Of a stretch of DNA of 40,809 nucleotides, positions 36,707-40,250 are shown one piece after another. The notes below the pieces were generated by a model that worked only from the letters and a program-made list of their open reading frames with translations, made no database searches and was not told where the DNA came from. Both the position numbers and the translations under genes were made by a program. Source of the stretch: Verrucomicrobiales bacterium. Its GTDB lineage: Bacteria; Verrucomicrobiota; Verrucomicrobiia; Verrucomicrobiales; DEV007. Position 1 is the stretch's first letter. The number at the start of each line of letters is the position of its first letter. The stretch is from assembly GCA_002698785.1 (NCBI GenBank), contig PAAG01000054.1, positions 1 through 40,809 of the forward strand, written 5' to 3'.

Positions 36707-37282
36707 ATGAGGCGAATTGAAATGGTGGCGTATCGGCAGGAATGGCCGGGGGAGTTTTTCCGTCTGGCTGGGGCGATTCGTGAGGCGGTCGGTGAGGAGG
36801 TGCTGCGAATCGATCATATCGGTTCGACGTCGGTGCCGGGGTTGTCGGCGAAGGATGTGATCGATATCCAGGTGACGGTGAGAGATCTGGATGATCGGTC
36901 GGTGGTGGAGGCGCTGGTTGGGCTGGGGTATTTGTTTAAGGAGCGGGTTATGCGTGATTTGCTGGTGGGGACGGCGAAGGATTCGCGAGAGTTGCGGAAG
37001 TTATTCTTCCGTGAAAAGCCGGGGGAGAGGCCTGCGAATATCCACATCCGTGAGATGGGGCGGGTGAATCAGCGATATCCTCTTTTGTTTCGGGATTACC
37101 TGCGAGCGTTTGCTCCGGTTCGGGAGGCATACGGGCAGGTGAAGAGGGAGTTGGCCCAGCGGTTTCCGGAGGATGAGGATGCGTATTATGCGATCAAGGA
37201 TCCGTATATGGATACGGTGTATTTTGCGGCCGAGGCTTGGGCGAAGGATGTGGGGTGGGAGATGGATGGGGCGTTTGTTTGA
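36707..37282 (+). CDS. GrpB-family (UPF0157) nucleotidyltransferase-like protein
   Basis: A 191-residue protein of the GrpB/UPF0157 family, a nucleotidyltransferase superfamily branch. Key segments are RRIEMVAYRQEWPGEFFRLAGAI at the start, RIDHIGSTSVPGLSAKDVIDIQV with the GS and D-x-D positions, and IHIREMGRVNQRYPLLFRDYLRAF near residue 120. Homologues occur alone or fused to CoaE; the reaction is not established. ATG 36707 fits the family start better than 36665. The G-rich codon style is unlike the next genes. Confidence 0.92.
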   Translation: MRRIEMVAYRQEWPGEFFRLAGAIREAVGEEVLRIDHIGSTSVPGLSAKDVIDIQVTVRDLDDRSVVEALVGLGYLFKERVMRDLLVGTAKDSRELRKLFFREKPGERPANIHIREMGRVNQRYPLLFRDYLRAFAPVREAYGQVKRELAQRFPEDEDAYYAIKDPYMDTVYFAAEAWAKDVGWEMDGAFV

Positions 37283-37333
37283 TTGGGGCTGAAAGTGTTG
37301 AGGGGAGTATCGAGACGTTCTAGTATTACAACT

Positions 37334-38095
37334 ATGGAAGGAAGGCGGAATTGGACGCGAGAGGAACACGTGATGGTGTTCAACTTGTACAATCAGCTCC
37401 CATTTGGGAAGTTTCATAAGGGAAACTCTCTGGTGAAAGAGTGGGCGGAGATGCTGGGCCGGACTCCTAGTGCGGTCGCTCTAAAACTAACTAATTTTGC
37501 TCGATTGGATCCCGCTTTGCAGGCAAGGGGGATTTCCGGGATGTCGCACGGGGCAAAGGGGGAGGAAGAGGTTTGGAAGGAATTCGCAGCGGATCCGGAG
37601 AACTTTGCTTATGAATCTGCAGTTCTTGTTGCGCAGCATAAGAATGAATCGCTAGTCGACTCCGAGGATCTGGATTTGCCGGAAGGAAAGGACCGAGATG
37701 CCAAGGTCAGGGTGCGGGTGAACCAAGCGTTTTTCCGCAAGCGCGTTTTATCAGCATATGGCTTTCGTTGCTGCGTAACTGGCCTGAGATTGCCGGAATT
37801 GCTGATGGCTAGTCATATTGTTCCGTGGGCGAAGGACAAAAAGAACCGATTGAATCCAAGAAATGGATTGTGCCTAAATTCACTGCATGACCGGGCGTTT
37901 GATCAGGGGTTGATGTGGTTGGATAGCAAACTGTGCGTGCAATTTTCCGACCGGTTGCTGGATCTGAAAGCTTCGGATTGGGGAGATGCGAAGTGGATGG
38001 TGCAGTTTGCAGGGAACAGGCTGATTGTTCCGAAAGGTTTTTCGCCGAGCCGGAAGTTGATTGCGAAGCACAGAGCAGTTGCTATGGCGGGCTAA
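37334..38095 (+). CDS. HNH endonuclease, putative restriction-type
   Basis: A 253-residue protein. The N-terminal half (RNWTREEHVMVFNLYNQLPFG, followed by HKGNSLVKEWAEMLGRTPSAV and ALKLTNFARLDP) is the helical Myb-like domain frequently fused to HNH nucleases. The C-terminal HNH_2 domain (about residues 130-210) shows YGFRCCVTGLRLPELLMASHI, VPWAKDKKNRLNPRNGLCL and LNSLHDRAFDQGLMWLD, with the catalytic His in SHI and the Asn and His ligands in place. Annotated relatives are called restriction endonucleases, but no methyltransferase partner is adjacent, so a role in defence or in a solitary mobile element is inferred. Confidence 0.9.
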   Translation: MEGRRNWTREEHVMVFNLYNQLPFGKFHKGNSLVKEWAEMLGRTPSAVALKLTNFARLDPALQARGISGMSHGAKGEEEVWKEFAADPENFAYESAVLVAQHKNESLVDSEDLDLPEGKDRDAKVRVRVNQAFFRKRVLSAYGFRCCVTGLRLPELLMASHIVPWAKDKKNRLNPRNGLCLNSLHDRAFDQGLMWLDSKLCVQFSDRLLDLKASDWGDAKWMVQFAGNRLIVPKGFSPSRKLIAKHRAVAMAG

Positions 38096-38460
38096 TCGGG
38101 GCTGTAGGTCCTGCTTGGAAATTTTGAGTAAGGTTTTTGACTACAGTGCTTTAATGTGTTCTGTTGAACATATTGATAGGCTTGGGCAAAATGCTTCGGA
38201 CCGATCATGGAAGTGAGTGCGCTCGAAGACCATCGTGACAGATGGGGGGGCCGCATTGTGACTGTGCGGCGAAGATTCGTCCGTTGCTGATCAGGCGTTA
38301 GAGGAATCTACTGCGAAGGAGGCGAGTTGGATGGTAGACCGATACGTGGATGAATTGAAAAATTGAACGATTCGAGGAAGTAAAAAATGAAAAGCGGGAA
38401 GTGATAGTATACATTTCGTCTTTGCCGGGTAGTGGGTGGTGAGAGTGAGCACGAAAATTT
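38096..38460. other. Intergenic stretch with a possible gene remnant
   Basis: No intact gene supported. GCCGCA (38250-38255) and TGCGGC (38265-38270) can pair. The plus frame from 38262 to the TGA at 38364 is open for about 34 codons and reads like a protein C-terminus (EESTAKEASWMVDRYVDEL), but it follows a stop and has no start with a binding site. It may be the tail of a decayed antitoxin- or regulator-like gene; this is weak. Confidence 0.4.
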
Positions 38461-39309
38461 ATGTTTCTCGCCGGTATGCCTTGGGAGGAGAATCCAATTT
38501 CTTGTCATATGTCTATTGAACTCTACGACCAAACTCGGAAATACTTTCTGGACTTGATAGACCACTTCTATGTGAATGGTGGCGATTTTGAAACCTCGAT
38601 TCGAGAGGCAAAAAAGGCGGCAGAGCGAGCTGGATTCACGAATTCTGACATGGTTGAAATCATGTTGGAAAGATGGGTAGAAAAGATTGAAGACGCTCTT
38701 TCCGACGGCGTTTTGACAAAGCAAGAGGATAGGAACTTGAATCTCATTGCTCACCATCTCGATACTCGCACTATTGAAGTCGGAGATCACAACCATTCGC
38801 ATATGAATGCGCTTATTCCCAGGGTTCAGGAATTGATCGATCAGATGAAGAAGCTATCGACAATTCGCCGTTTAAGAGATGGCGAGCTGGATGCTTCGTC
38901 GTTCGATGGTTTGATACCATTCAAACTTCAGAACGGAGAGATTCCAATTTGGAAAGCTGAAGACGTTACTCTTCGAGAATTCGTGAAGGAAAGGAGTGTA
39001 AAAGGGCAATCTTTCGGAGTGAGTATCCGTGTCGCGAAAGGAGTTTATGTGAGGCCCTCTGCATTTTCTGCCGCCCCTCAGCAAAAAGAGTCTTTGAAAG
39101 ATGTAGACAAGGGGACTGTCATACTGACCAGCAAACACATCACCTTTGATGGGGCGATAAAACATTTCAAGATTCGCCTTACTTCACTGGCGAATATCCA
39201 GCCATTCTCAGATGGCTTGGAGCTCCAAAAGAACACCCAGACGGCTCGTCCGTTCTTTCTGTTTCCTTTCGACGGTTGGTTCTTTTATAATTGCATTCAG
39301 GCCGTCTAG
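38461..39309 (+). CDS. TerB-like helical plus PH-like domain protein (unknown function)
   Basis: A 282-residue cytosolic protein. The N-terminal half is helical (SIELYDQTRKYFLDLIDHFY; EAKKAAERAGFTNSDMVEIML; EDALSDGVLTKQEDRNLNLI), a TerB-like pattern of acidic helices. A linker around residue 125 leads to a beta-rich half with LIPFKLQNGEIPIWKAEDV, the motif GVSIRVAKGVYVRPSAF, and KGTVILTSKHITFDG followed by HFKIRLTSLANIQPFSDG. I read this as a PH-like domain, seen in many unannotated proteins. The base composition is lower in GC than neighbours (25 of 60 bases G/C at 38521-38580), suggesting transfer. The start is uncertain: 38509 gives MSIEL and is also likely. Function unknown. Confidence 0.72.
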   Translation: MFLAGMPWEENPISCHMSIELYDQTRKYFLDLIDHFYVNGGDFETSIREAKKAAERAGFTNSDMVEIMLERWVEKIEDALSDGVLTKQEDRNLNLIAHHLDTRTIEVGDHNHSHMNALIPRVQELIDQMKKLSTIRRLRDGELDASSFDGLIPFKLQNGEIPIWKAEDVTLREFVKERSVKGQSFGVSIRVAKGVYVRPSAFSAAPQQKESLKDVDKGTVILTSKHITFDGAIKHFKIRLTSLANIQPFSDGLELQKNTQTARPFFLFPFDGWFFYNCIQAV

Positions 39310-39588
39310 GCTTTGCCACCCATGAATTACTAAAGGTCATTGTTTGCCCGCCGTGACTCCAGCGGAGAGAATTAGGGGACATCTAAAATGGTCGGTTCGA
39401 TGTGGTTTCCGAGTTCCTCGGTGTGAATTTGACGTGTTGCAGGGTTCCCCAGTGAAACGTGCGTTGCTGCTTCTGTTTGTAGCAGCCGCTTTTCCCGTGA
39501 AGGCTTGCCGTTCTGATTCGTTTGGATAAATTCGGTGATCACCGGCGGGGTAGATGTGAGCCCAATGGAAGGGCGTTGGCGGTGATTG
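39310..39588. other. Non-coding gap in the accessory region
   Basis: No gene is supported in this 279-base gap. A plus-strand frame at 39344-39529 exists but shows no domain and has a Cys/Arg-rich composition untypical of real proteins here. Confidence 0.4.
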
Positions 39589-40037
39589 TTATCCTCGCTC
39601 CTTGTCTGAATCCATTGCGTCTAGCTTCCTTGCTTCAATTACGCTTTGGTGAAGAGACTGGGCCTTGTTGAACACGCTCAATGCCTTGTTACGCGCAATG
39701 CCCAAGCTCTCCATCAGAGTGACAAACTCGGATTCAGTCCAGTTCTCCGTCGCAATCTGATCGGTAGTCAAAAGTTGAGAAAGCTCTAACCGACTTTCTC
39801 GAGAGAGTTTAGAGAGGATCCAGACCAACATTCTCTCTTGGGAATCTGGTTCAGCTTCCTGCTGAATTTTTCGATTACTCTTTCTCTCGCAATGGATTCC
39901 AGCCACCCTGGAAGTTCTTCTCTACAAACCTCCAACGCAGTCGTTACAGCATTCAGAAGTTTCCGATCGAAAGAAAACTCAACATCTATTCGATCATTCT
40001 TACCTTCCGAGAGATTGCTGTTACTTTCTCGATTCAT
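39589..40037 (-). pseudogene. Frameshifted helical protein gene of unknown function
   Basis: Two minus-strand frames overlap: one from ATG 40037 (FDRKLLNAVTTALEVCREEL, then LESIARERVIEKF) and one ending at 39589 (QERMLVWILSKLSRESRLEL, then ENWTESEFVTLMESLGIARN). Each reads as credible protein only on its own side of the A5 tract GAAAAAT (plus coordinates 39867-39871). Adding one A there joins them into a single protein of about 149 residues (VIEK-IQQEAEPDSQERM), acidic and helical. It may be a pseudogene, a sequencing error in the homopolymer, or a -1 frameshift site. No family recognised. It lies in the accessory stretch before tRNA-Arg. Confidence 0.6.
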
Positions 40038-40176
40038 CGATTTGTCACTGAACTTCGGACTTCGTGGGTCAGAATATTCGATATAAGAAGGTTTTTCCCC
40101 AGCTCAGTATTTACACAGTTTTAAGGGGCGGGGAATCCTTTATAGCCCTTTAAATAATATTTGGGGATTACAAAAA

Positions 40177-40250
40177 CACGCCCGCCGTGATTCGAACACG
40201 GGACCTACGGATTAGAAGTCCGTTGCTCTATCCAGCTGAGCTACGGGCGC
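40177..40250 (-). tRNA. tRNA-Arg (anticodon TCT)
   Basis: A full cloverleaf on the minus strand. The acceptor is GCGCCCG with CGGGCGT, allowing a G-T pair at the end. The D-stem is GCTC/GAGC and the anticodon stem ACGGA/TCCGT holds loop CTTCTAA, so TCT reads AGA. The T-arm is CCGTG-TTCGAAT-CACGG. The discriminator is G and CCA is not encoded. TTTTT follows directly, a likely simple terminator. tRNA genes are common integration sites, and the low-density stretch at 36.3-40.1 kb lies just beyond its 3' end. Confidence 0.97.

Follow-up and report, generated by a model that had tools for sequence, protein, structure and literature searches.

An accessory block beside a tRNA-Arg integration site in a Verrucomicrobiales draft genome, with a solitary HNH nuclease and a separate PH-domain protein

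The locus

The DNA studied here is a stretch of 40,809 bp from a Verrucomicrobiales bacterium (GenBank assembly GCA_002698785.1, contig PAAG01000054.1), hereafter called the window. It is the complete contig C57 of a draft genome of 7.0 Mb in 60 contigs, with 95.9% completeness and 4.97% contamination. Towards its right end a tRNA-Arg(TCT) gene is located on the minus strand at 40177–40250, and the DNA between an algJ-like gene and this tRNA (30633–40176, about 9.5 kb, strand none) forms an accessory block. The block encodes, among others, a solitary HNH nuclease of a restriction-type clade (37334–38095, plus strand) and a low-GC (guanine plus cytosine) protein with a helical half and a half of PH/GRAM fold (38509–39309, plus strand). 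An earlier note, made from the sequence letters, had placed a tRNA-Arg at the end of 36707–40250, where it is indeed found, and had read the DNA beside it as accessory and possibly as an eroded island with a small defence-type element.

The limits of the block were obtained by tblastn of the window genes against one locus (L133) of the relative G025 and from the position of the tRNA there. G025 is collinear with the window through nnrD, glgP, cpbp, thiL, tsaB, MBOAT and algJ, followed by the tRNA. The distance from algJ to the tRNA is approximately 280 bp in G025, whereas it is 9544 bp in the window, and the accessory block is therefore wider than the range first marked. The comparison with relatives that the earlier note had proposed thus agreed with it in that the block is absent from G025 and its genes are rare, and corrected it in the extent of the accessory DNA. 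The PH gene was found in none of 94 relatives, and the GrpB gene of the block has matches in two out of 32 other genomes of the genus, one of them weak. Together with the integrases and tRNA copies of relatives described below, this supports accessory DNA at a tRNA that serves as integration site.

The GC content is 56.9% for the GrpB gene, 51.3% for the HNH gene, 45.2% for the PH gene and 43–47% for two overlapping frames close to the tRNA, whereas the 16 flanking genes (g106 to tsaB, MBOAT and algJ) range from 48.8 to 57.5%. Low GC alone is weak evidence, because two further non-core genes of the window are similarly low (46.3% for the one at 16177 and 46.7% for the one at 31944).

The tRNA-Arg as an integration site

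A scan for tyrosine integrases (PF00589) covered 15 relatives, in 13 of which the contig extends 1.9 kb or more 3' of tRNA-Arg. Among these 13, the tRNA adjoins the orthologue of a transporter in ten, and in three (G005, G008 and G023) a tyrosine integrase frame starts 103–113 bp past the tRNA. The integrases of these three relatives, and two more encoded on G004:C52 and G023:C90, make up one family with 39–61% identity. Copies of the 3' half of tRNA-Arg are present elsewhere in the genomes of G005 (43 nt, 98%) and G008; a copy in G016 sits right at a contig start and could be an assembly break instead. In G001, G006, G009 and G012 the contig ends inside the tRNA or a few bases from it. Furthermore, a short sequence resembling an element end follows the tRNA in seven out of 16 relatives, six detected by script patterns and G005 by eye. 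This tRNA-Arg is a true integration site in the relatives. We found no work on the site in the open-licence PubMed Central (PMC) literature, judged by titles and the openings of abstracts, and the present data document a working tRNA-Arg(TCT) integration site in a genus that has received little study; at least one relative, G008, carries restriction-type cargo there.

The G008 element at the same tRNA (L126:6282–12621) encodes an integrase, a C5-methylase and a HATPase protein. In G005 the copy of the 3' half adjoins an integrase frame on contig C108 (L237, approximately 6532–7818), while the intact tRNA is located on a different contig.

To the right of the tRNA the window ends within a 53-bp tandem repeat (beginning at 40739–40809, strand none) that resumes at the start of contig C51 (also L030:1–240), so that the assembly break between C57 and C51 falls inside the repeat. 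The first large gene of C51 encodes an ABC transporter. In our tally, a whole or partial tRNA-Arg is located no more than about 250 bp from the orthologue of this transporter in 16 out of 32 relatives of the genus. Since the two adjoin in half of the relatives, we consider the join of C57 to C51 sound and tRNA-Arg a core gene whose position is fixed. An Rfam scan returned nothing except the tRNA-Arg. An 8-bp tandem repeat, AGGCACGA, present in 5.8 copies at 40477–40522, occurs on contigs C32 and C33 as well.

The HNH nuclease

The protein encoded at 37334–38095 matches HNH_2 (1.9e-12), and Pfam gave in addition a sub-threshold Myb match only. The search of defence-system profiles suggested in the earlier note was made with PADLOC and was clear for this gene, for which PDLC04132 is the best full-length HNH model (1.8e-87); a weaker match is to a model annotated as a type II restriction enzyme. 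The frame is open over its full length, and the motif's SHI and NG residues are conserved in all 14 rows of the alignment, from which L019 was excluded because its match sits inside a very long frame.

HNH-type matches were found in 32 of the 94 relatives, only two of them exceeding 50% identity (56–57%), one in G081, which belongs to another family, and one in G038, of another genus. No full-length HNH relative is encoded on a contig beside tRNA-Arg in the relatives; the tRNA-Arg contig of G004 contains, about 16 kb away, a match confined to the HNH part. A single-sequence query of viral contigs returned no HNH relative.

A C5-methylase and/or a Vsr endonuclease adjoins the HNH relatives in at least four of 14 loci according to Pfam, which was run on the proteins of five loci, the remaining ones being judged by eye. 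Exemplified by individual loci, Vsr adjoins one of the two closest relatives (L031), a C5-methylase adjoins the relative in L022, and a C5-methylase directly follows it in an unannotated phage record (L236). A gonococcal locus (L234, 3956–5747) encodes Vsr and a C5-methylase fragment of 133 amino acids, followed by a full HNH relative with 44.5% identity. By eye, this gonococcal group lies between genes resembling pheS and pheT. A second HNH gene adjoins the relative in L036, and by eye a similar one does so in L037.

No methylase or Vsr adjoins the HNH gene in the window, and with the HNH_2 match and the conserved motif this bears out the earlier description of a solitary HNH endonuclease. 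In the whole genome there were no matches to the C5-methylase family PF00145, the one methylase class searched for (controls match in 10 out of 14), and none to Vsr (PF03852; controls match in 5 out of 14). A putative nuclease with an intact motif is thus present, whereas no cognate methylase of the C5 class was detected, and the gene, which in sequence resembles type II nucleases, fails as a restriction-modification (R-M) system and fits the category of solitary restriction endonucleases, a known kind. A full-length nuclease of restriction type in a genome without a detected C5-methylase raises the testable question of how the host survives.

Loss of expression or activity has been discussed for solitary enzymes by Ershova et al. 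(PMC3488263), and the partner genes are gone from this genome, both of which suit an R-M remnant, dead or silent. The full-length open frame, with every aligned motif residue kept, speaks against such a remnant, which we regard as possible, if on the unlikely side.

A type IV-like nuclease, which depends on DNA modification and requires no methylase partner, would also agree with a genome devoid of C5-methylase and Vsr matches. Furthermore, the sole PDB sequence match of the protein, confined to its HNH part, is to 6yex, an HNH endonuclease; we take 6yex to be the EVE-HNH enzyme VcaM4I. The NCBIfam model PT-DNA_restrict matches the HNH part likewise, at 48.7 bits, far under its cut-off of 180. 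The N-terminal part, however, contains no modified-base reader recognised by Pfam, and the C5-methylase or Vsr genes adjoining members of the clade are what would be expected for a type II enzyme against which methylation protects. We find a type IV-like enzyme rather unlikely. The likelihood that remains beside these two possibilities goes to a solitary enzyme of type II that would be active.

The PH-domain protein

For the second gene, queries were made with 38512–39306, that is without the first methionine. An AlphaFold2 model built on 30 rows has a predicted local distance difference test score (pLDDT) of 88 and a predicted template modelling score (pTM) of 0.78, and consists of helices to residue 122 followed by a PH-type barrel and a closing helix. 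With VIA-align, residues 136–265 align to the MTMR2 PH-GRAM domain (Z 11.4, root-mean-square deviation 2.1, 91 aligned). Foldseek by itself returned nothing from the PDB at an E-value of 0.001 or better, and a structure search of viral models gave two matches at that threshold, an unnamed one and an uncharacterised protein of a phage. As predicted by the model, the PH/GRAM fold of the C-terminal half is well supported.

The helical half matches the PADLOC candidate PDC-S48 weakly (3.2e-6, residues 30–87). Among 30 members of the family, this candidate matches nine (best 3.5e-13), and Pfam TerB matches five, again weakly (best 0.0042). There was no clear PDB match for this half, and no TerB among the 50 fold matches listed, which does not disprove such a fold. 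A TerB assignment is weakly suggested by sequence. The earlier description of a low-GC TerB/PH-like protein holds for the GC content and for the PH/GRAM fold; its TerB part does not go beyond these weak matches, just as the PADLOC search was weak for this protein.

No relative was found on the genome contigs with the single sequence as query, while the alignment as query returned 78 loci (L156–L233). Further relatives occur at ten loci of viral contigs and in two plasmids and two phages, some of them matching over the PH part only. The 30-row alignment has eight invariant columns; the N-terminal alignment contains 25 of the 30 members, five long ones being excluded. A start of zinc-ribbon type (C-x-x-C, a loose pattern) is found in 46 out of 71 members and is lacking in that of the window. 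On plasmids, one relative is part of a ter-like operon (Prevotella) and another accompanies a VWA gene (Moraxella). In Victivallis-type genomes (L057 and L058) a CI-like repressor and an integrase or recombinase adjoin the PH relatives, and the same pair is found near a relative in a viral contig, which has a counterpart in Pelotomaculum.

The possibility that this is mainly a prophage gene family was considered and rejected. A recombinase adjoins four of the 78 genome loci, a lower bound given the limited set of seeds, and because of this small share most members are not shown as prophage genes. The protein is one of a widespread family, of which a few members are encoded within prophage lysogeny modules. 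Pfam has no model dedicated to this family, widespread as it is; we found no Pfam name for it and, by titles and abstract openings, no study of it in the open-licence PMC literature.

Origin of the block

We give a probability of about 0.6 to the reading that the window contains an accessory block at a real integration site, with unrelated cargo genes that include a solitary HNH nuclease and a separate PH protein. The stretch first marked would be the right-hand part of this block of about 9.5 kb, next to the tRNA-Arg docking site of a tyrosine integrase family. Most likely the block arrived with one or more tRNA-Arg elements, whose integrase and far end would have been lost later, and its genes would be mutually unrelated cargo. 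The HNH enzyme most likely cuts incoming DNA at sites that the host lacks or shields otherwise, or else is silent. The PH gene, encoding a separate protein of an unnamed family, may derive from a prophage lysogeny module like those of its Victivallis-type relatives, where a PH domain binding a ligand or a membrane would sense an infection or block it. That the genes are old island cargo is likely, if not proven, and that the block is an eroded island is plausible, likewise not proven. Taken as a whole, this is fairly ordinary accessory DNA and not a new defence system.

Several observations weigh against this reading. Searches of 30600–40809 for integration genes, made with seven integrase queries and one serine recombinase, and those for methylase, Vsr, repressor and ATPase, gave no match below an E-value of 0.09. 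There is accordingly no integrase, recombinase or repressor relative in this region, nor a repressor and recombinase beside the PH gene, and PF00589 has no match on C57. The earlier note had seen no integrase and, by eye, no duplicate of the tRNA 3' end, and our searches agree on both. The best candidate for such a duplicate matches 13 out of 14 bases (39346–39359, strand none), 11 of them exact (39346–39356), and is near chance; it was rejected as an attachment (att) site, since 45 of 1000 shuffles, or 18 of 1000 in a slightly different set-up, gave an equal match. A displaced end of tRNA-Arg was not found in the assembly, which matched only tRNA-Arg itself and another full-length tRNA. The window also lacks the element-end-like sequence that follows the tRNA in seven of 16 relatives, G025 is the sole collinear relative in the DNA examined, the best MBOAT match lying elsewhere in the others, and with 95.9% completeness a methylase could be missing from the assembly. 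Since neither integrase nor att copy is left, the block may or may not have entered as one element.

The lack of an integrase and of an att copy would also suit a plain rearrangement, or slow gene gain in an intergenic region, with the neighbourhood of the tRNA coincidental. In support of this, HNH relatives in G028 and G038 are located among ordinary genes (by eye), and a second extra block of the window (16177–27522), with no tRNA adjoining, is absent from G025 as well. Against it, the same tRNA bears integrases and displaced 3' ends in relatives, and the block genes are rare in the genus. We consider a coincidence of this kind doubtful, and prefer the accessory block at an integration site. 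The second block is located between the tsaB and MBOAT genes and encodes a short-chain dehydrogenase, a metallo-beta-lactamase fold protein, an Asp-Al_Ex/TrkA_C transporter and a truA-like gene, and, by eye, RND-type pump genes with a MarR-like gene.

A more specific proposal joins two functions: the HNH clade, elsewhere found next to a C5-methylase and Vsr, would act in this C5-methylase-free genome as a stand-alone restrictor whose unassigned N-terminal domain spares self DNA, and the zinc-ribbon/helical/PH family would be an uncharacterised infection-sensing protein present in prophages, in many chromosomes and in a ter-like operon of a plasmid. We think it improbable that both hold.

The earlier note had further suggested that the HNH and PH-like genes make up one small two-gene defence element. 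They are neighbours on the same strand, with a strong PADLOC match for the former (1.8e-87) and matches to the candidate PDC-S48, weak for the helical part of the window protein (3.2e-6) and better in the family (nine of 30 members, best 3.5e-13); however, a gap of 413 bp separates them. Co-occurrence was sought in 97 PH-family loci and 30 HNH loci, sets that include some duplicates and differ in the extent of DNA, the 30 HNH loci representing 22 distinct places. No HNH relative was found in any of the 97 and no PH-protein relative in any of the 30, which speaks against a single system of the two genes in the loci tested and makes a two-gene element very improbable.

Other genes of the block

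A TPR-like gene (35895–36275, plus strand) was identified by a profile match and by relatives in the genus. The two best of these relatives share their contigs with integrases of the tRNA-Arg family (G023:C90 and G004:C52; L242 and L241). It is followed by a gene for a GrpB family protein (36707–37282, plus strand; PF04229, 7.8e-43), which the earlier finding had not named.

The supposed frameshifted gene consists of two overlapping frames on the minus strand (39589–40037), one at 39786–40037 (83 amino acids) and one at 39589–39906 (105 amino acids). The frames exist as described; they have weak family matches only, no relative at an E-value of 1e-3 in the loci tested, and a best match elsewhere of 0.11. 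This open reading frame (ORF) may be a broken ORFan, the result of a sequencing error, or not a gene at all. Its place and direction are similar to those of the integrases past the tRNA in relatives, and we rejected it as their counterpart for want of a sequence match. A gene remnant suspected near 38200–38370 found no support, there being no query match below the same 0.09 threshold in 30600–40809. PHROGs gave weak or function-less matches only.

Comparison with known systems

The solitary restriction endonucleases described by Ershova et al. in 2012 (PMC3488263) are explained there by an unseen methylase, by lost expression or activity, or by missing sites. The HNH gene of the window is like them in being full-length, in having relatives within R-M systems and in the lack of a C5-methylase match in the genome. 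It differs in that its activity is predicted from sequence and in that the methylase search covered the C5 class.

The truncated methylase of the gonococcal NgoAXIII locus has 133 amino acids (PMC6789123), and this locus combines it with Vsr. L234 shares Vsr and a C5 fragment of 133 amino acids beside its HNH relative, and from this we infer that it is probably the NgoAXIII locus. Both Vsr and such a fragment are absent from the window.

Compared with the zinc-ribbon/helical/PH family, covered in part by PDC-S48, the window member lacks the zinc-ribbon start and has no ter-like or lysogeny genes adjoining it, but it shares the same architecture of helical and PH parts.

Finally, the tRNA-targeted islands of the Islander type (PMC4383910) have an integrase and a displaced tRNA fragment, which are both missing from the window. 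Like them, however, the block of the window is located directly 3' of a tRNA that the integrases of relatives use, and it is absent from a collinear relative, G025.

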